64,000 nucleotides of DNA from Dyella marensis (GTDB lineage Bacteria > Pseudomonadota > Gammaproteobacteria > Xanthomonadales > Rhodanobacteraceae): contig NZ_FONH01000003.1 of NCBI RefSeq assembly GCF_900112865.1, positions 429,269 through 493,268 of the forward strand, given 5' to 3'. Of this stretch, positions 31,016 to 40,709 are shown one piece after another (position 1 is the stretch's first letter; the number at the start of each line of letters is the position of its first letter). A model generated the notes under the pieces. The model saw only the letters and a program-made list of their open reading frames with translations. It had not been told where the DNA came from and made no database searches. A program made the position numbers and the translations under genes.

Positions 31016-31603
31016 CTACATCAGCATGACGTTGAACATGTCCAGCGTAGCGGCAAGGTCCGGATGATCCACCAGTGGAATCGATTCGGCGCCGTCGATG
31101 AGAGGCCTGGCCCGGTCGAACAGGGCGAAGGCGCGCTGGTCGTTCATATGGCGCGAAACGTAGACGAGTCCACCGACCTTGGCGGGGTGGTCGTGCACGG
31201 CCCGCGACCATCGCTGGGTCGTGTCGTATGGCAGTTCGGACGAGATGTCGTTCGTGCCGCCGATGCGCTTGAGGTGCGCGCCGGTCAATTCGGCCAGCTG
31301 GATGATGTCGCCGGCAAAGAGGATGGCGTGGCGGTCGCGCAAGGACCGCTCATCGAGCAGATAGGCCCCGCGAGTCGGGACAAGATCATGCAGCAAGGTT
31401 TCTGCGAAGGCGCCGGCCAGGGTCTGGCCGGCGTAGCAGACGCCATAGCTTTGCAAGGGGTCGTCGAATCGATGGCCTTTGCTCCTGCTGAAATAGGGTT
31501 CGGTGGCGGGATATCTGCTGATCCGAATGAGATCAGAGGATTCGACTGCAGTAAGCCCTAGTACGAATCGGTCGAAATCGGGATCGGGTTGGGGCAATGC
31601 CAT
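31016..31603 (-). CDS. RES-domain toxin (NAD+-degrading family)
   Basis: A 195-residue RES-domain protein. The three family residues are visible: Arg in LIRISRYPATEPYF, Glu in AGAFAETLLHDL, and Ser in GLVYVSRHMNDQ, together with SYGVCYAGQT. RES toxins such as MbcT degrade NAD+ by phosphorolysis or hydrolysis and stop growth unless bound by the antitoxin. The gene is 13 bases downstream of the antitoxin gene in one operon, the usual order. Its ATG is at 31603 and the transcript ends at the terminator 30976. Confidence 0.85.
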   Translation of the reverse strand: MALPQPDPDFDRFVLGLTAVESSDLIRISRYPATEPYFSRSKGHRFDDPLQSYGVCYAGQTLAGAFAETLLHDLVPTRGAYLLDERSLRDRHAILFAGDIIQLAELTGAHLKRIGGTNDISSELPYDTTQRWSRAVHDHPAKVGGLVYVSRHMNDQRAFALFDRARPLIDGAESIPLVDHPDLAATLDMFNVMLM

Positions 31604-31616
31604 CGAACGTCCATGT

Positions 31617-32243
31617 TCAGCGCTCGCGATAGGCGCGTGCCGCGGTCAGCACGGGCTCCTTCGCACGGTCGCGCAAGGCCTGCAAAGGCGTCCTGCCGGC
31701 GAGCGATCCAAGTTGGGTGGTAAAGAAAAGCCATTTATTCCAAGGCGTTTCGTCTGCCAGGATGTTCAGTGCATCGGTCAAGCCAAGGGCGCGCAGTTCC
31801 TTGTCCGCCAGGAATGCGGGGTAGTAGAGCTCCCTGCCGCCTGGCTGCAGGGCGAAATAGGTACCGGCCTGCAGGCCCTTGTGCACGGCTTGCCGGCTGA
31901 TGCCGGCAAGCTCGGCGAAGTCCTTGGAAACGAGCACTTCGCCGGAAGCCACCAGTTCCTGCTTGATCTTGTCCGAACGCGCCTTGGCTGCCTTGATCGC
32001 ATTGTCGTTCGAGAGCCTGCTTTGCGCGCGCTGGATCTCGTCCAATATCAGACCAAGTCGACGCACATCTTCTGCAGCCTGGGGCTGGAGCTGGATATCG
32101 GCCGCGCTGTCGCGCGCGGCATGGATCAGCTGCTGGTCCGAGAGATTGCGGATGCCTTTGAGGAACCGGTGGGCGGAGTCGGCAATGCGGTGGAGTACTT
32201 CACTGACGCTCGCGGATTCCGAAGGAGGAAGAGTGGGGTACAT
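31617..32243 (-). CDS. Antitoxin of the RES system, long atypical Xre/MbcA-like protein
   Basis: A 208-residue protein in the antitoxin position. The C-terminal part, WNKWLFFTTQLGSLAGRTPL then QALRDRAKEPVLTAARAY, matches the toxin-binding domain of the Xre/MbcA/ParS antitoxins (DUF2384). In the middle, SKDFAELAGISRQAVHKGLQ looks like a helix-turn-helix, so it probably represses its own promoter. Unlike MbcA-type antitoxins it carries about 100 extra N-terminal helical residues. ATG 32243 is chosen because the promoter at 32275-32303 places the transcript start downstream of the earlier ATG at 32279. Confidence 0.72.
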   Translation of the reverse strand: MYPTLPPSESASVSEVLHRIADSAHRFLKGIRNLSDQQLIHAARDSAADIQLQPQAAEDVRRLGLILDEIQRAQSRLSNDNAIKAAKARSDKIKQELVASGEVLVSKDFAELAGISRQAVHKGLQAGTYFALQPGGRELYYPAFLADKELRALGLTDALNILADETPWNKWLFFTTQLGSLAGRTPLQALRDRAKEPVLTAARAYRER

Positions 32244-32274
32244 GGCGCCTGCCTCGTCGCTTTGGAACGAGGCC

Positions 32275-32303
32275 ACCATAAGTCGAACCCATCTCTTTGT
32301 CAA
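32275..32303 (-). promoter_or_regulatory. Sigma-70 type promoter of the toxin-antitoxin operon
   Basis: On the minus strand TTGACA (32303-32298), a perfect -35 box, and TATGGT (32280-32275) are exactly 17 bases apart. A second GTTGACAAA copy lies just upstream, giving a direct repeat that could be a binding site for the antitoxin. Confidence 0.65.
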
Positions 32304-32357
32304 CTTTGTCAACCACGGCAACTTAATCAACCCTGCCTGTGGCCACATGGTTTCTCC

Positions 32358-33425
32358 CTAAAGCGGCGCCACCTGAACCTCCGCCACGCCAAGCAGCCCG
32401 GCCAGCGGTACGTGGGCGACCGTCTGGCGCGGGCTGACGGTAAGCCGCTGCCGGCGCAACAGGTCGAGGAACATCTCCGCTAGCGGCAGCACCATGTGCT
32501 GTCCCCAGCAGCGCTCGGACTTGTGTCCGAAGGGAAGGTAGCCGGGCAGGTCGTCGGCAGAGAGATGCTTCCAGCGCTCCGGCAGAAATTCGTCCGGGTC
32601 GTCCCAGAGTGCGGGAGCGCGATGGCTGACCAGCGGCAGGATCAGCACGTCGTCCGCCGGACCGATGCGGGCATCGATCGCCGTGTATTCCGGCGAGGCG
32701 TTGCGCAGGATGTTCCACGACGGCGGCAGCAGCCGCAGCGTTTCATACAGGATGTGCCGGTTCGACAGGCCATCGCCGAACGGAGCGCCAAGCCAGATGG
32801 CGTTGGCCACCAGAGTGGAAATGGTGAAGCAGACCGGCGCGGCCGTCCGCCGGTACATGCCCATGGCGTAGCGGCGGTCGTGATAGCTCGTCGCGGCCGC
32901 CGTGGCCACGGCGAGCGCGGAGGCCTGCGGGCGCGGCCGCAGCGGGAACAGCGCACCGGTGGCGACGACCGCCCAGGTCAGCTTGGGCGTCAGTTCCAGG
33001 ATGCGATCCATCAGGAAGCGCAGCCGGCGCGGATCCTCACCCAGAATCAGGTCGCGCAGATAGACGTGCCCGACGTGCGGCCATGGACCGGAGAGATCGA
33101 CATCGTCCGGTACGGGCTTCTTCAGCGCGGCACGCACGTCGCGCGCAATCGCCTGCATGGACTTCAAGGCATCCGGGCGCGGGATGGAGCGGCCATGCAG
33201 GGGTTTGAACGTCGGTCGTTCGAATTCGGTGGCCGGCCTGGCCTTAAGGACCCGGTCGATCAAGTCCGGGCCGGCGACGCCGACCGTGTTGGCATCCAGC
33301 CGGAACAGATCGTCGCCGGCATGCTCGCGCAGGAGTGCCTGGAGCCGGGAGGCGAAGACAGTGGAGCGAACGTGCCTGGCGATCGGTGGCATGGCGGTCG
33401 AGGGCCTTGAGGGTCGGCGGAGCAT
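32358..33425 (-). CDS. Cytochrome P450, probable RiPP crosslinking enzyme
   Basis: A 355-residue P450, short for the superfamily (about 400). The ExxR motif is ETLR (residue about 228) in HILYETLRLLPPSWNILRNA, the PERW element follows in FLPERWKHLS, and the heme-binding loop is PFGHKSERCWGQHM with the Cys ligand at about 306. The region where the I-helix acid-alcohol pair should be reads CFTISTLVANAIWLG, with no AGxxT. It directly follows a 27-codon gene ending in YIWY, so it probably makes aryl-aryl, aryl-ether or similar bonds in that peptide, as CitB does for cittilins. ATG 33425 or ATG 33392 could be the start. Confidence 0.82.
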   Translation of the reverse strand: MLRRPSRPSTAMPPIARHVRSTVFASRLQALLREHAGDDLFRLDANTVGVAGPDLIDRVLKARPATEFERPTFKPLHGRSIPRPDALKSMQAIARDVRAALKKPVPDDVDLSGPWPHVGHVYLRDLILGEDPRRLRFLMDRILELTPKLTWAVVATGALFPLRPRPQASALAVATAAATSYHDRRYAMGMYRRTAAPVCFTISTLVANAIWLGAPFGDGLSNRHILYETLRLLPPSWNILRNASPEYTAIDARIGPADDVLILPLVSHRAPALWDDPDEFLPERWKHLSADDLPGYLPFGHKSERCWGQHMVLPLAEMFLDLLRRQRLTVSPRQTVAHVPLAGLLGVAEVQVAPL

Positions 33426-33458
33426 CCGGCGATGTCCGATGGCACAGCCATCGCCGGA
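33425..33458. promoter_or_regulatory. Inverted repeat at the P450 start codon
   Basis: TCCGGCGATG (33425-33434) and CATCGCCGGA (33449-33458) are perfect 10-base inverted arms. On the minus-strand mRNA the stem ends right at the P450 ATG 33425, so it could mask that start, or it favours use of ATG 33392 instead. Confidence 0.5.
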
Positions 33459-33475
33459 CGCAGGCGGATCGAAAG

Positions 33476-33506
33476 GCGTGTGTTCTCTAGCTCAGAGAAC
33501 ACACGC
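33476..33506 (-). promoter_or_regulatory. Strong intercistronic hairpin between precursor and P450 genes
   Basis: A perfect 13-base inverted repeat (GCGTGTGTTCTCT / AGAGAACACACGC) with a 5-base centre, starting six bases after the precursor stop codon. There is no T-run after it in the minus direction, so it is more likely an mRNA-stability or partial attenuation structure that favours the short precursor cistron over the P450. A DNA operator is the alternative reading. Confidence 0.7.
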
Positions 33507-33512
33507 GATCGC

Positions 33513-33596
33513 TCAGTACCAGATGTACCAGGCGTAGTCCTTCAAGCTTTTCTCGCGCGCCACCAGGTTCTTGATGGCAAAGAGAGTCTTCTTCAT
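33513..33596 (-). CDS. 27-residue putative RiPP precursor peptide, cittilin-like (C-terminus YAWYIWY)
   Basis: A very short gene of 27 codons plus TGA. The peptide starts MKKTLFAIKNLVAREKS, a basic amphipathic leader, and ends LKDYAWYIWY with four Tyr/Trp in the last five residues. On the minus strand an AAAGG ribosome site lies nine bases before the ATG. Known cittilins come from a short precursor with a C-terminal YIYY core that a P450 crosslinks by a biaryl and an aryl-ether bond; here the last four residues are YIWY and a P450 gene follows in the same direction. Length, aromatic C-terminus, order and the hairpin between the genes all support a precursor role. No methyltransferase or transporter gene is adjacent. 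No product is known; the function is inferred. Confidence 0.8.
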   Translation of the reverse strand: MKKTLFAIKNLVAREKSLKDYAWYIWY

Positions 33597-33891
33597 GAAA
33601 GGCACCTTTTCAGTGAGACGTTCGATGTCGTGCATCCCTGCGGCGATGGCGTTCCTTGCGAACCGGAAAGATCGCTTGGATCGACCGGCCGTCGATGAAG
33701 CTATGTCAGAGGGACGCGACGGGATTGTGCGGGTGGGCCAGAAATCTGGTCTCGATGGGCCGCCGGAAGAAAAGGGAGAGGTGTGGGTGTTCGCGGTGTG
33801 AAAGTGTCATCGCGGCAGAGTGTTCACGCCGGCTAATCAATTCCTAATCGCCCGGAAAGAGCATGGCGACTCCTGCCTTGGAATGACTCCC
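33597..33891. other. Intergenic region upstream of the RiPP-like locus and the lipoprotein gene
   Basis: Divergent promoter region of about 295 bases. It must contain the minus-strand promoter of the precursor gene, but I see no convincing -35/-10 pair. Two GTGTTC words at 33787 and 33820 resemble half-sites of the hairpin at 33476. Short open frames on the plus strand here have poor codon character and I do not regard them as genes. Confidence 0.5.
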
Positions 33892-34050
33892 ATGAAGAAA
33901 CTGCTTCTCGTCGCTCTTGCTTGTGCCGGCCTGCTCAGCGGCTGCATCTCAGTGGATCGGCGCGACGACTACCATGAGCATCGTCGCGATCGGTATGAGG
34001 CATGCCGGCAATACCACGATGCGGAATATTGCGACAGATGGCGCGGCTGA
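33892..34050 (+). CDS. Small lipoprotein, hypothetical
   Basis: A 52-residue protein starting MKKLLLVALACAGLLSGCIS, a clear type II signal peptide with lipobox LSGC, so the mature part is only about 35 residues anchored by lipid. The mature part is strongly charged (DRRDDYHEHRRDRYEACRQY) and has three more... two further cysteines. ATG 33883 three codons upstream is an alternative. I do not recognise the family. It would be processed by LspA. Confidence 0.7.
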   Translation: MKKLLLVALACAGLLSGCISVDRRDDYHEHRRDRYEACRQYHDAEYCDRWRG

Positions 34051-34181
34051 CGGGTCATGGCCTTCTATCCATCCCGCATGCGTAGGCGGCTATCACTCCA
34101 GCCTATGCATGACCTGAAGAAACTACGATGCATGGAAGGCATGGGACATTGATTCGCGCCATGCCGGATCGAGCGCCTTCA

Positions 34182-34661
34182 TCAGGAGGCTGACGGGTGG
34201 CCGTTTTCGTCTCGCCCTGGCTCTTGGTCCCGGTCAGGCATCAAGATGATCAGCGGCTTGCAGGCGAGCTGTGAGCAACCCATCAGGTGCGTTGCATTGC
34301 CGTTGCGCCAGGTACTGGTGCCGGCAGCGTTGATCTCGAATTCCCAGGTCGCTCCCTGGATCCGCGCATGCCCCTTGATCGAGCATGGCAGCCAGTAGTA
34401 GTCGTGGAGTTCGCCTTCGCGCAGCTTGCGGCTCAGGCGCCACACCGATGCCGCCTGCTGCTTGTCCAGCGACCATGCCTTGCATGCATCTTCGTCGCTG
34501 GCCACGCCGGGTGCCCCCGGAGCAGGCCGGTAGAGCGATGGCGATACGTCCAGGATGGTGATGGCGTCCTTGTCATCGGCCAGCGCCTGCGACTCGCAGA
34601 GCAGAACCAGCATGCCCGCGCAGGCCCATAACCCCGCGCGGCGCTTCTTGCGTGACGGCAT
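34182..34661 (-). CDS. Hypothetical secreted protein
   Basis: A 159-residue protein. ATG 34661 is chosen because it opens a signal peptide (MPSRKKRRAGLWACAGMLVL...ALADD). The mature part has ITILDVSPSLYRPAPGAPGV, a cysteine near EDACKAWSLDK and further cysteines in WLPCSIKGHARIQG and LMGCSQLACKPLIIL, so disulfide bonds are likely. Open frame continues upstream to 34826 with a low-complexity Ser-rich stretch, and an upstream start is possible. No family recognised. Confidence 0.6.
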   Translation of the reverse strand: MPSRKKRRAGLWACAGMLVLLCESQALADDKDAITILDVSPSLYRPAPGAPGVASDEDACKAWSLDKQQAASVWRLSRKLREGELHDYYWLPCSIKGHARIQGATWEFEINAAGTSTWRNGNATHLMGCSQLACKPLIILMPDRDQEPGRDENGHPSAS

Positions 34662-34881
34662 GCTCTTCGCCGGCGCGCTGCTCGATGGATTCGTCAAAGC
34701 CTGGCTCGAATTTGAGTCGAGCCGGGTGCCTGATGGTTGCAGTGTGAGCATGGCGATCTCTGGATTGACCCGGTTGGCAGGAACGACTGCTGGCCGATAC
34801 GAGCCATCCGTTTGGTAGCCTTCCAATCCACGGGTGGCGGTGCGTCGAGCTTGGTTTGACTATGACCCATCCGGTCGATTC

Positions 34882-35427
34882 ATGGAGGATGCGTTCTTGG
34901 ACGTTTTCGATCTAGCTCGAAACCCGGATCAGATCGGCCCGGCCTATCTCTTCTATCTCAGCTTCGCGATGATCGGCCTGGGCGTGTGCGCTTGCATGCT
35001 GTATCTCGTTCGCGACGGAAGAAAAGGCGCATGGTTCTACCTTCTGGCCGCTTTGGCCGTCACCGCGATCATGTGCTGGTTGATGGCGCATGAGATCCGC
35101 CATGTCCGCGCGGTGAAGGCACAGGTCCTGAGCGGTGGCTTCGCCAGTGTCGAGGGCTGCCTCGATCAGTTCCATCCAGGGCTTGCCAATCCGAGCGAGG
35201 CCGATTCCGGCGTGGAGCAATGGTCCGTGGCGGGGCAGCGATTCGATTACGGCGCAGACGAGATCCGGCTTGGTTATCACGCGGTCGAGCCGGACGGCGG
35301 CCTTGTCCATGCGGATTCATGGGTGCGGGTAGGTTATGTCCGCGATGATCTGCTGGCGCGCAACGACATCGTGCGGCTCGAGGTCGTCCAGCATGCATGT
35401 CCGCCGGCGCCGGACTTCGCCAGATAG
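34882..35427 (+). CDS. Hypothetical membrane protein
   Basis: A 181-residue protein with two transmembrane segments, AYLFYLSFAMIGLGVCACML (residues about 23-42) and WFYLLAALAVTAIMCWLM (about 52-70), followed by a soluble domain of about 110 residues with a Cys in GCLDQFHPG and another in QHACPPAPD. I do not recognise the family. The start is uncertain because no ribosome site stands out; ATG 34882 fits the membrane topology, with an alternative GTG at 34834. Confidence 0.6.
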   Translation: MEDAFLDVFDLARNPDQIGPAYLFYLSFAMIGLGVCACMLYLVRDGRKGAWFYLLAALAVTAIMCWLMAHEIRHVRAVKAQVLSGGFASVEGCLDQFHPGLANPSEADSGVEQWSVAGQRFDYGADEIRLGYHAVEPDGGLVHADSWVRVGYVRDDLLARNDIVRLEVVQHACPPAPDFAR

Positions 35428-36070: not shown

Positions 36071-36364
36071 GCGAGCCGCGAATTTTACGTAACGGCCCCC
36101 GGGCGCGCAAGCGCCAGGCGCGGTGCGGCTTTTGCCGAGCGATTCAGAAGGTTACGTCGATCGCCCGGTTTTTCGGACTGATCCTCATGCCGTACAGGCC
36201 GCGGTCCGTTCCAGAATGCCTGCAAGCCGAGTCAGGCCATGCGTAGGCGCAGCGATCACGGGATTCCCTCGCGGATGACCGAGGAGCATCGAGGCGCCGC
36301 AACCGCGGTGATCCAGGCAGCTGCCGGGCAGGAACGCTCAGGCGGCGGGAGGGGAATTCTGGCA

Positions 36365-38104
36365 ATGCGTCTCATGGCTATCGAGATGTGCATGGGGAGG
36401 CCGGGCGTGATGGCATGGATCGGTGCCAGGCCGCGCTCGGCGAACGAGCTGTCGGCGCTTGCGTTCGCGTCCGCGGTCGAAGCGCCGGAGGGCTGGTTCG
36501 TGCATGCCGCCCTGGGCATGGTGTTGCTGGGCGTGGGCGCGATGGCCTGGTCCCTGCGCCGCCACGCGAGGGAGCAGGCGAGCGCGCGGCGCCGGCGCGA
36601 AGCGGGGAGCGACCGGTACGAAGCGATCTTCCACGCCATGCCTTTCCCGGCGTTCTGCAAGGATGCAAGCGGCGGCTATCTCGCGGTCAATCGTGCCTAC
36701 GAAGATGCCTTCGGTATCGAGGCGCAGCGCCTGATCGGGCGCGACCTGGCGCAGACGAGACATCTGGACCTCGACTGCGAGCGCATGCACGCCGCGCACC
36801 TGCAGGTGATCCGCAGCGCGACGTCGGCGAGCGACGACCTGATCCTGTCCGACGCGCGGCATGGCGCGCGTGCGTTCCGGCTATGGCTGATCGCGATGGG
36901 GCCGCGCCTCGACGGCGTGGCCTTGCTGGGCATCGTGGTGGCCGCGGATCGTCCGCCCCGTCCGGCGGAAACGGCATGCGTGCCGTCCCGCACGGTCCTG
37001 GACCATGCGCTGCTTTCCGCGGTCAGCCACGATGTCCGCACACCGCTGACCGGCATCATGGGGGCGCTCGAACTGCTCGGGTATGCCGAACTCACCACGC
37101 GGCAGCGCGCCCTGGTGAGCGGCGCGGAAAACGCCTCGCGCGCCTTGCAGGACATCCTCGACGACTTGCTGGCGCTGGCCAGGCTGGAAACGGAGGGCAC
37201 TGTGAGGCCTGACCAGCCGATCGACCTGCGCGGGCTGCTTGCCGGCCTGCTGGCGAAGCATGGGACGGGCGGTGGCGTGCTTGACCTCGACGAGCGCCTG
37301 GCGCCCCGCTTGATGGGCGACGGCCATGCGCTGCGCAGGGCCCTGGGCAAGTTGCTGGTCCATTATTTTTCCCTCGGCCTGGGCCGCGCGCCGCGGTGGG
37401 ACGTCCGCGTGCTCGCCCAGGGCGCGCAATGGCAGTCGATTGAGCTGGTGCTGGCGCCGCTTCCGGCCACGGCGGCGCAAGCCGAGGCTTCCGCACCCGC
37501 GAGCCATGGCAACCAGCTGGCGTGGATCGCGGCCTGCAAGTTGTGCGAGTCGATGGGTTTCTCGTTGAGGGAGCAGGGGAGCGGAGGGACCGGGCCGCGC
37601 TTCGTCATGCACGGCTCCCTGCCGCTGGCGGCGGACGAGACACGCCACGAAACCGGCGGCGGTGCGCAATCCCTGGAGGTGGCAGAGCTGGCCCGGCTGG
37701 CGCAGGAAGATGCCGGCCACGTCGCGCGGCGGCTCGCCGACGTATTCGGCGACGACGCTGGCGCCATCGCCGATTACCTGCACCTGGTCCGCAACGAGGA
37801 GCAACGCCTGCAGGCCAACCTCGACGCCGGCGATACGAGTCGCCTGCGCGAGGCGGCGCATTACCTCTCCGGCATGGGTTCGTTCTTCGGTGCGCAACGG
37901 CTGGCCAGCATGGCGACGGCGCTCGAACTCGGCCGGGGCCGGGACGAAGTGATCGAGCGCGCCGAAGCATTGCGTACTTATCTGACCTGTTTCATCGAAT
38001 CCCTGCACGGGAATACGTGCGAAGCCACCGCAATTACGAACAATACGATGGTTATTTCGGATGTGTCGCATGGAAAAGTATCCAGTGCGGCACTAGAACT
38101 TTGA
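36365..38104 (+). CDS. PAS sensor protein with degenerate kinase domain and Hpt domain
   Basis: A 579-residue protein: one transmembrane segment (WFVHAALGMVLLGVGAMAW), a PAS domain starting about residue 80 (YEAIFHAMPFPAFCKDASGG), a HisKA dimerisation helix with SAVSHDVRTPLTGIMGALEL (His at about 222), a degenerate ATPase region, and a C-terminal Hpt domain with AAHYLSGMGSFFGAQRL (His at about 499). The N box expected after LGKLLVHYFSLGLGR lacks its Asn, and G boxes are not recognisable, so ATP binding is doubtful. It probably passes phosphate to the regulators encoded just downstream. ATG 36365 is chosen for its GGAGGGG site; ATG 36239 and 36275 lie in the same frame. Confidence 0.78.
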   Translation: MRLMAIEMCMGRPGVMAWIGARPRSANELSALAFASAVEAPEGWFVHAALGMVLLGVGAMAWSLRRHAREQASARRRREAGSDRYEAIFHAMPFPAFCKDASGGYLAVNRAYEDAFGIEAQRLIGRDLAQTRHLDLDCERMHAAHLQVIRSATSASDDLILSDARHGARAFRLWLIAMGPRLDGVALLGIVVAADRPPRPAETACVPSRTVLDHALLSAVSHDVRTPLTGIMGALELLGYAELTTRQRALVSGAENASRALQDILDDLLALARLETEGTVRPDQPIDLRGLLAGLLAKHGTGGGVLDLDERLAPRLMGDGHALRRALGKLLVHYFSLGLGRAPRWDVRVLAQGAQWQSIELVLAPLPATAAQAEASAPASHGNQLAWIAACKLCESMGFSLREQGSGGTGPRFVMHGSLPLAADETRHETGGGAQSLEVAELARLAQEDAGHVARRLADVFGDDAGAIADYLHLVRNEEQRLQANLDAGDTSRLREAAHYLSGMGSFFGAQRLASMATALELGRGRDEVIERAEALRTYLTCFIESLHGNTCEATAITNNTMVISDVSHGKVSSAALEL

Positions 38105-38216
38105 ACGCCTCACACGGAAGGCCCATCACCGCCTTCTTCCGATACCACGCAACGGCGGAACCGGCATGGGGGTCGGTCTATCCGCCACCCGGGCGCATCC
38201 AAGCCAAGGAGATTCA

Positions 38217-38855
38217 GTGAACATCACCAACGACGCGAATATCCGGATCATTCTGGCGGACGATCATCCGATCATTCGCAGGGGAGTCATGGCAGTACTG
38301 GGCGGGAGCGACATCCGGGTCGTCGGCGAGGCCTCCTGCCCGGTGGAGTTGCTGTCCCTGCTCAGCCGGGTCGAATGCGACGCGGTGGTCACCGACTACA
38401 TCATGCCCAGCGACAGCTCGCCCGACGGCATCCGCCTGATCGAGCGGCTGCGCACGCTCAGGCCCGAGCTGCCGATCGTGGTGCTGACCATGCTGCGCAA
38501 CGTCGGCCTGCTGCAGGCGCTGCTTGCCGCGGGCGTCAAGGCGATCGTGGACAAGTCCACCGCGATGGCCGAAATCCATACCGCGGTCCGCCTGGCGGCA
38601 ACCGGCCATGTCTTCGTCAGCGCCACCTTCGAAGGCCGGCTGGCGCGCTTCGGCGCCCATTCGGTCAACCGCCTGACCGAGCGCGAGGGCGAAATCATCC
38701 GCCTGCTCGTCGCCGGCATGAGCGTGACCGAGATCGCGCGCAAGCTGGATCGCAGCGTGAAGACGGTGAGCAAGCAGAAGACCGACGCGATGAAGAAGCT
38801 GGGCCTGCGCTCCGACATGGAGATCTATGCCTATGCGACCGAGGTGGGCTACTGA
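38217..38855 (+). CDS. Response regulator, NarL/RcsB type (1)
   Basis: A 212-residue regulator. The receiver domain has the acidic pair in IILADDHPII, phospho-acceptor Asp at about residue 60 in VVTDYIMP and Lys in AIVDKSTAM; the C-terminal LuxR-type helix-turn-helix reads LTEREGEIIRLLVAGMSVTE then IARKLDRSVKTVSKQKTDAM. The start is GTG 38217 with AAGGAG five bases upstream. The inserted SDSSPDG loop after the Asp and the KQK motif resemble RcsB. It follows the Hpt sensor gene by 112 bases and resembles the regulator at 45398. Confidence 0.88.
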   Translation: MNITNDANIRIILADDHPIIRRGVMAVLGGSDIRVVGEASCPVELLSLLSRVECDAVVTDYIMPSDSSPDGIRLIERLRTLRPELPIVVLTMLRNVGLLQALLAAGVKAIVDKSTAMAEIHTAVRLAATGHVFVSATFEGRLARFGAHSVNRLTEREGEIIRLLVAGMSVTEIARKLDRSVKTVSKQKTDAMKKLGLRSDMEIYAYATEVGY

Positions 38856-38925
38856 CGGCTTTCCCGCCCTCGTCTTGTCTTCCGTGGCCGCCGGCCATGG
38901 CGAATCACTACAGGTATGCCGCGAC

Positions 38926-39555
38926 ATGTTTACTGCCGTCGTCGTCGACGATCACCCGATGGTCAACGGGGCGCTCCGCGCCATGCTGGAACGGAGCGGG
39001 GAGTTCAAGGTGCTGGCCGAATGCGGCAACGGCCAGTCGGCGCTCTCGGTCGCCACGGAACTGCAGCCGGACCTGCTCGTCATCGACCTGGACATCCCGC
39101 AGCTGGACGGCATCGAGGTGATCTGCCGCCTGCGCGAAAGCGGCCGGCCGCTGGCCATCCTGATGATCTCCGCCGGCGAGGAAACGGTCAGCGGCGTGCG
39201 CGCGTTCCGCGCCGGCGCGGATGGCTTCGTGCACAAGAGCGCGCCGATGGAGGACGTGGTCGCGGCGGCGCAGCTGATCGTGCGCGGCAAGATCTATTTC
39301 AGCCGCGGCATCATGGACGCCGCGGCCAGCCTGGGCTGCAAGGGCGCGCAAAGTCCGCTGCGCGAGCTGGGGCGGCGCGAGTTCGAAGTGTTCCGTTGCC
39401 TGGCCCTGGGGATGTCCAACATCGACATCGCGCGGCACATGGCGATCAGCAACAAGACCGTCAGCGCGCACAAGCGCAACCTGATGGACAAGCTGGGCCT
39501 GGCGAACATCCGCGACGTGATCGAGCTGGCGCGCCAGCATCGCATCGTCGAGTGA
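38926..39555 (+). CDS. Response regulator, NarL type (2)
   Basis: A 209-residue regulator with receiver (AVVVDDHPMVNGALRAMLER, phospho-acceptor Asp at about 54 in VIDLDIPQLDG, Lys in GFVHKSAPM) and a LuxR-type HTH domain (LGRREFEVFRCLALGMSNID, IARHMAISNKTVSAHKRNLM). ATG 38926 opens the receiver; 70 bases separate it from the previous regulator, so both may be made from one transcript with the Hpt sensor. The two regulators are only distantly alike, which suggests different targets for a shared phosphate donor. Confidence 0.88.
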   Translation: MFTAVVVDDHPMVNGALRAMLERSGEFKVLAECGNGQSALSVATELQPDLLVIDLDIPQLDGIEVICRLRESGRPLAILMISAGEETVSGVRAFRAGADGFVHKSAPMEDVVAAAQLIVRGKIYFSRGIMDAAASLGCKGAQSPLRELGRREFEVFRCLALGMSNIDIARHMAISNKTVSAHKRNLMDKLGLANIRDVIELARQHRIVE

Positions 39556-39557
39556 GC

Positions 39558-40709
39558 TCAGCCGCGCCGCTGCGCGCCTCGCAGCAGGGCGAACGCGCCG
39601 GCGCAGGCCAGGATCACCAGGGCGCAGGCCGTCGGCGGCCACCAGCAGCGGGCTTCGCGCAGCAGGCCCACGCTGGCGAGGAAGCACGCCGCCAGCGCCA
39701 GCAGCGCGACCGGCCACGGCGAACGGAAGCCGGGCAGCCCGTACAGCAGGAACGGCAACGCCAGCAGCAGCGCGCCGACCAGCAGCTGCCCGCTGAAATT
39801 CAGCGGCGCCAGCGTGGTGCCGGTGCGCATCGATTCGAGCAGATTGGCCTGGTACTCGACGCCGGGCATGCGCTCGCTGCCGCCGGACGCCGAGGTGTCG
39901 AGCAGGTCGCCAAGGCCCGCGGCGGTGGCGCCGATCAGCACCCAGCGATCCTTGAGCAGGGATGCCGGTACGCGTCCTTCCAGCACATCGACATACGACA
40001 CCTGGTCGAAGCTGCCCGCGGGACCGGCGAAATGCAGCATGACGTAGTCGTCGCGCAGCCATTGATAAGGCGAGGCGCCTTCCAGCGTCGAGCGGTGCAG
40101 GCTGGGCGGATCGGGCGGCTTCGCGCCGGCCTGTCCGAAGTCGCGCACCGCCAGCGCGAGCGCCGGCCAGTAGGGGCTGCCCAGTCCGGCCTTGAGATAG
40201 GAGCCGCGCACCACGCCGTCTTCGTCCTTCGCCGCGTCGACGTGGCCGAAGGCCGCGGCCGCGCCGGCCAGCTGCGGCGTCGGCAGCATTTCTTCCAGCG
40301 TGCCGCCGAGGTCGGGCGCCTCGGGAAACACCGGCATCACCACGCGGCCATTGCGCTGCATCGCCGCCGCCAGCGCGGTGTCGTTTTCCGGGTGGCGCAG
40401 GTCCGGCTCGGCCATGGTGATATCCATGCCGACCGCGCGCACGCCGGCGGCGCTGAGGCGGTCCAGCAGCCTGGCGTGCGTGGCACGCGGCCACGGCCAG
40501 TTGCCCAGCACGGACAGGCTCTTCGGATCGATCGCGACGATCGCCACCGCGTTGCCGGGCTGGTAGCTCCAGTGGCGCATGTGCAGATCGTAGAAGGCGT
40601 TGTCCAGGCGCATGCCCAGGCCGCTGGCCAGCACCAGGGTGAGCGCCGCCACGCTGATCATCCAGCCCAGCGCGCGCGCCAGCAGCGCCATCGGATGGAA
40701 GCGCGTCAT
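39558..40709 (-). CDS. CHASE2-domain membrane protein without output domain
   Basis: A 383-residue protein. After an N-terminal membrane helix (ALGWMISVAALTLVLASGLG) comes an extracytoplasmic CHASE2 domain (about 35-290) with DPKSLSVLGNWPWPRATHA, GVRAVGMDITMAEPD and DRWVLIGATAAGLGDLLDTS, then three membrane helices to the C-terminus (LLVGALLLALPFLLY, VALLALAACFLASVGLL, ACALVILACAGAFALL). CHASE2 is normally joined to a kinase, cyclase or GGDEF domain; here none follows, so it must signal through a partner. It lies 51 bases downstream of the LysM/FecR gene, a pairing seen in other proteobacteria. Confidence 0.85.
   Translation of the reverse strand: MTRFHPMALLARALGWMISVAALTLVLASGLGMRLDNAFYDLHMRHWSYQPGNAVAIVAIDPKSLSVLGNWPWPRATHARLLDRLSAAGVRAVGMDITMAEPDLRHPENDTALAAAMQRNGRVVMPVFPEAPDLGGTLEEMLPTPQLAGAAAAFGHVDAAKDEDGVVRGSYLKAGLGSPYWPALALAVRDFGQAGAKPPDPPSLHRSTLEGASPYQWLRDDYVMLHFAGPAGSFDQVSYVDVLEGRVPASLLKDRWVLIGATAAGLGDLLDTSASGGSERMPGVEYQANLLESMRTGTTLAPLNFSGQLLVGALLLALPFLLYGLPGFRSPWPVALLALAACFLASVGLLREARCWWPPTACALVILACAGAFALLRGAQRRG

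Follow-up and report, generated by a model that had tools for sequence, protein, structure and literature searches.

The cittilins of Myxococcus have an all-tyrosine core (YIYY) that contains no tryptophan. They are derived from a 27-residue precursor through aryl cross-linking by a P450, and a methyltransferase is described as obligatory in the myxobacterial cittilin clusters (extracts of PMC8708641). The biarylitides and myxarylin are likewise encoded by a minimal precursor gene and one P450. Tryptorubins A and B belong to the atropopeptides (the trp/try, lau, sva and sca clusters; model NF038372), which are defined by a class-specific P450, a KSLK leader motif and tryptophan at core position 2, and among whose clusters a minimal two-gene architecture is found (extracts of PMC11450843). 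More than 650 atropopeptide clusters have already been published, and the published survey names Streptomyces, Xanthomonas and related genera as hosts; Xanthomonas clusters often include proteases, and some of their cores lack the second tryptophan and follow the pattern xWxxYx (extracts of PMC11450843).

Judged from its sequence, the window (the whole 64,000-nucleotide stretch of Dyella marensis DNA that was analysed) almost certainly contains a two-gene atropopeptide locus, in which a 27-residue KSLK precursor with the core AWYIWY is accompanied by a P450 that would be likely to cross-link the aromatic side chains of the core. The precursor gene (MKKTLFAIKNLVAREKSLKDYAWYIWY; 27 amino acids, 84 bases) was located at 33513..33596 on the minus strand, with an AAAAGG ribosome-binding site at 33605..33610 (minus strand), 8 bases before the ATG. 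It scored 47.5 bits (E 1.5e-12) with the curated NCBIfam model NF038372 (tryptorubin_fam), whose cut-off is 33, and no other NCBIfam model matched it at E values up to 1. The KSLK motif occupies residues 16-19 (33540..33551, minus strand) and the core residues 22-27 (33516..33533, minus strand); the core is that of tryptorubin A, includes both W23 and W26, and has tryptophan at its second position. The adjacent P450 was assigned to the atropopeptide class from the precursors adjoining its relatives and from a P450 tree, and the locus fits the minimal two-gene architecture. It differs from the tryptorubin clusters in its host, a gammaproteobacterium where theirs is Streptomyces, in its leader sequence and in that its product is a predicted one. 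A biarylitide assignment was rejected, the precursor there having five residues (extracts of PMC8708641) and the present one 27.

The sequence-only reading had described a short gene with its own ribosome site, a P450 next to it in the same direction and a minimal P450-modified RiPP with tryptophan in the core, all of which was borne out, and it had rightly regarded a gene of 27 codons as easily overlooked by annotation. It had also called the locus undescribed; the NF038372 match and the P450, together with the KSLK motif and the second-position tryptophan of the core, correct this claim of a new RiPP class, placing the locus in the already known tryptorubin (atropopeptide) family, of which it is an ordinary member apart from a predicted RNA hairpin, itself present in the majority of the related loci.

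The P450 (344 amino acids; 32358..33392, minus strand) follows the precursor gene after 120 nt on the same strand. Its open frame extends over 32358-33425, and the family alignment fits a start at 33392, the bound given for it previously. Identity to 21 aligned relatives was 64-89%. Cys295, which is expected to ligate the haem, is encoded at 32508..32510 (minus strand) within PFGHKSERCWG, and the ExxR motif is present as ETLR (residues 217-220; 32733..32744, minus strand); the cysteine, and the glutamate and arginine of ExxR, were found in all 70 aligned sequences. An unusual haem loop, FGHxSERCWG (residues 288-297), is common to nearly all 70, and the motif [AG]Gx[DE][TS] was not found anywhere in the window P450 protein. 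A predicted structure reached a pLDDT of 84.4 with 70 sequences (a poor model built with 22, pLDDT 59.8, was left unused), and its fold matches included P450Blt (9bw8_A, rank 44) and many unrelated P450s. The nearest curated RiPP P450 model, that of the aminopyruvatide P450 ApyO (NF050147), was rejected at 62.2 bits against a cut-off of 525. With a GC content of 0.680 the P450 gene is level with the window (0.677) and so gives no sign of recent import; that of the precursor gene is 0.50.

Relatives were collected with a profile of 22 P450s run against a one-genome-per-species collection, which returned 118 stretches with a relative, the best 80 being kept. A precursor was present 5' of the P450 in all 80 of these best loci; the outcome that the sequence-only reading had named as refuting it, orthologous P450s lacking a short aromatic peptide upstream, did not arise. 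A fixed KSLK-like pattern caught the precursor in 77 of the 80, the other three having the variant motifs KNLK, RSFK and TSLK, and a widened pattern caught it in 81/81 loci (the best 80 of 118 and the window). Tryptophan was the second of six core residues in 80/80 kept relatives. Across the same 81 loci the cores were AWYIWY (24), AWYLWY (20), AWYFWY (14), AWYHWY (6) and rarer forms (17). The hosts of the best 80 were Actinomycetes (68), Gammaproteobacteria (10) and Betaproteobacteria (2), with Streptomyces, Xanthomonas, Luteibacter, Collimonas, Burkholderia and Dyella among the genera. In a quick tree the window P450 paired with that of its nearest relative, Dyella sp. SG609 (support 100), and the two belong to a clade of 13 proteobacterial P450s (support 99), which also holds those of Xanthomonas and other Pseudomonadota. 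The Xanthomonas vasicola core, SWGLYM, has no second tryptophan, in agreement with the pattern xWxxYx.

The locus is patchy in its occurrence. Of 6 genomes of the genus, 2 have a precursor that scores above the curated cut-off, as have 6 of 233 genomes of the taxonomic family, look-alikes under the cut-off (23 of the 29 matching genomes) being left out of these counts; 14 control genomes gave four matches below the cut-off and none above. The same two genomes of the genus encode a full-length P450, a third of the six giving a distant partial match only. A literature search found no published link of tryptorubin with Dyella.

Between the two genes a stem-loop was predicted at 33476..33506 (minus strand), 6 bases past the precursor stop, with 13 perfect pairs and a loop of 5. 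Compared with shuffles that preserve dinucleotides, the 76-nt intergenic region of the window had a z of -4.10, and 0 of 200 shuffles were equally stable. When the 75 nt past the precursor stop were folded for all 81 loci, the mean z was -2.62, with z < -2 in 47 of them, and the longest helix had at least 8 pairs in 76/81. Of 13 proteobacterial loci, 8 had z < -2. In the 78 loci with full controls the mean z after the stop was -2.67 (47 under -2), as against -0.15 5' of the precursor (2 under -2; p 4e-12) and -0.64 3' of the P450 (13 under -2; p 2e-8), p-values which overstate independence because the loci are related; within the P450 the mean was 0.05 (2 of 77 loci under -2). No Rfam family matched 32200-34300 at gathering cut-offs.

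Covariation was assessed in three actinomycete groups of 8, 11 and 13 sequences, hand-picked along the tree. The covariation term of RNAalifold was favourable in two groups (-1.34 and -0.5) and slightly unfavourable in the third (+0.09), and because of this mixed outcome the changed pairs were also counted directly, alongside controls. Pairs changed on both sides numbered 5/13, 6/17 and 5/14 in the groups of 8, 11 and 13 sequences, respectively, where shuffled means were 2.6, 2.7 and 1.9 and at least the observed count turned up in 6, 1 and 2 out of 500 shuffles. The covariation scores were reached by 0/500 shuffles in each group and exceeded every slid version, in a test which favours the hairpin structures because they were derived from the same alignments.

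These results tentatively suggest, at somewhat less than even confidence, that the atropopeptide operons of two phyla may share an RNA stem-loop after the precursor gene, its fold kept while its sequence changes and without a U-tract, which would stabilise the short precursor mRNA and in this way control the precursor-to-P450 ratio. In another system, the cip-cel operon, stoichiometry is known to be set by a stem-loop (extracts of PMC10311766). There is also a substantial, if not preponderant, chance that the hairpin arises incidentally from GC-rich sequence or simply marks the end of the precursor gene, and does not regulate a ratio. Hairpin sequences do differ between groups, 34 of the 81 loci do not fall under a z of -2, and the intergenic regions of Dyella sp. 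SG609 (z +1.59) and Burkholderia multivorans (z 0.03) are no stabler than chance; against an incidental origin, the dinucleotide shuffles and flanking controls rule out composition alone, and changes on both sides of a pair beat the shuffled and slid controls in all three groups. An intrinsic terminator is spoken against by the lack of a U-tract, the 8 nt past the longest helix holding at most 4 T in all 81 loci, and by a terminator scan of 32250-33950, which found 0 where 1.1 were expected. A narrow literature check found no published description of such a hairpin, the main text of PMC11450843 containing neither 'hairpin' nor 'terminator'.

The surroundings of the locus were also compared. 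In line with what had been noted previously, no methyltransferase, protease or exporter was recognised by Pfam in the 10 neighbouring proteins, although 5 of these have no family above the cut-off and may include one that Pfam misses; in having no recognised protease the locus differs from the Xanthomonas clusters with proteases. For 13 proteobacterial loci, the open frames of 90 residues or more lying within some 6 kb were compared, with clusters judged by eye; besides the P450 and overlapping or chained frames, no cluster of neighbours covered more than 7 of the 13, those reaching 7 being Xanthomonas, and the upstream neighbour in the window was common only to Dyella sp. SG609. A 197-aa protein (34834-35427, plus strand) that neighbours the SG609 locus too has a second copy, 79% identical, elsewhere in the same genome, and no match in 4 other genomes of the genus. 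On the other side lie a RES-domain gene (31016-31603, minus strand; PF08808, 65.6 bits) and, preceding it, a 243-aa gene with no Pfam match above the cut-off (31617-32348, minus strand), which together look like a RES-type toxin-antitoxin pair; a promoter-like TTGACA-17-TATGGT is present at 32303-32275 (minus strand; 0.3 expected), and no counterpart of the pair occurs within 6 kb of the SG609 locus. Further away, at 36239-40709, a PAS-HisKA-Hpt kinase, two LuxR-type response regulators and a CHASE2 protein (opposite strand) stand in a row. A plasmid search returned 100 matching records, 18 of them covering at least 80% of the query (16 from Streptomyces clavuligerus and 2 from Embleya), and nothing in it ties the window locus to a plasmid.

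Both frames are intact and under purifying selection between the two Dyella. The precursor of Dyella sp. SG609 is MKKSLFAIKNLFEREKSLKDYAWYIWF, with the core AWYIWF, and differs from that of the window by 3 synonymous and 4 nonsynonymous codons in 27 (dN 0.070, dS 0.42, dN/dS about 0.17, from these 27 codons only); the P450 gave a dN of 0.073, a dS of 0.600 and a dN/dS of about 0.12, and a 14-base block around the precursor ribosome site, CTCACTGAAAAGGT, is unchanged in SG609. These observations make it improbable that the cluster, although of atropopeptide type, is silent or decaying in the window strain, a state with which its patchy occurrence would agree, as would the relative in Xanthomonas cucurbitae, where the P450 frame is broken by an in-frame stop. 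The precursor in that X. cucurbitae genome is still intact, with the core SWYIWY.

If the locus works like the characterised trp and lau clusters, to which it is homologous, the precursor would dock on the P450 through its leader helix, with KSLK anchoring the leader, and the core would then enter the active site. There the one P450 would remove 6 H in forming three oxidative bonds, of which one would be a biaryl C-C bond and two would be C-N bonds, the first of these linking side chains and the second reaching the backbone. All three are reportedly installed by the P450 in the tryptorubin cluster (extracts of PMC12352619). The hexapeptide would be released by a host protease encoded elsewhere in the genome, and a peptidase may trim the alanine to give WYIWY, the sequence of tryptorubin B, which is formed when the hexapeptide loses its N-terminal alanine (extracts of PMC11450843). 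The predicted intergenic stem-loop would shift the balance from the P450 message towards the shorter one of the precursor, so that substrate would be plentiful and enzyme scarce. The expected product is AWYIWY minus 6 H, with a computed m/z of 895.377; the hexapeptide of the lau cluster is reported at m/z 895.3760 (extracts of PMC11450843). The linkages are fixed by neither sequence nor mass, since P450s of the atropopeptide family give differing bond patterns on one core in the varsorubins, and laurentirubin has the sequence of tryptorubin with other bonds and a second P450 involved (extracts of PMC11450843).

The sequence-only reading had expected a cittilin-like product, with a four-residue core, YIWY, and two aryl links (minus 4 H) made by a CitB-like P450, and the locus does resemble the cittilin outline in its 27-residue precursor, its aromatic-Ile-aromatic-aromatic end and its P450, but this is very improbable, as the precursor matches only the tryptorubin-family model among NCBIfam models at E up to 1, has KSLK and a tryptophan-containing core in which AW precedes YIWY (with tryptophan second of six in 80/80 relatives, the best 80 of 118), and has no methyltransferase, obligatory in the myxobacterial clusters (extracts of PMC8708641), recognised among its 10 scanned neighbours. 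For the atropopeptide product, in which the core has six residues as in tryptorubin A and three cross-links are expected by homology, a mass search for YIWY minus 4 H would miss the compound.

What is new here is an atropopeptide member in Dyella, together with the stem-loop predicted in the interval between its two genes. The locus leads to a direct prediction, the mass of tryptorubin A in a Dyella gammaproteobacterium. The last core residue sits outside the bicyclic system in published structures (extracts of PMC11450843). AWYIWY and AWYIWF, the latter a core found in Streptomyces corallincola too, form a natural pair in one genus that varies only in this residue. If functional, the hairpin would be a shared control element, and as such relevant to moving atropopeptide clusters into other hosts.
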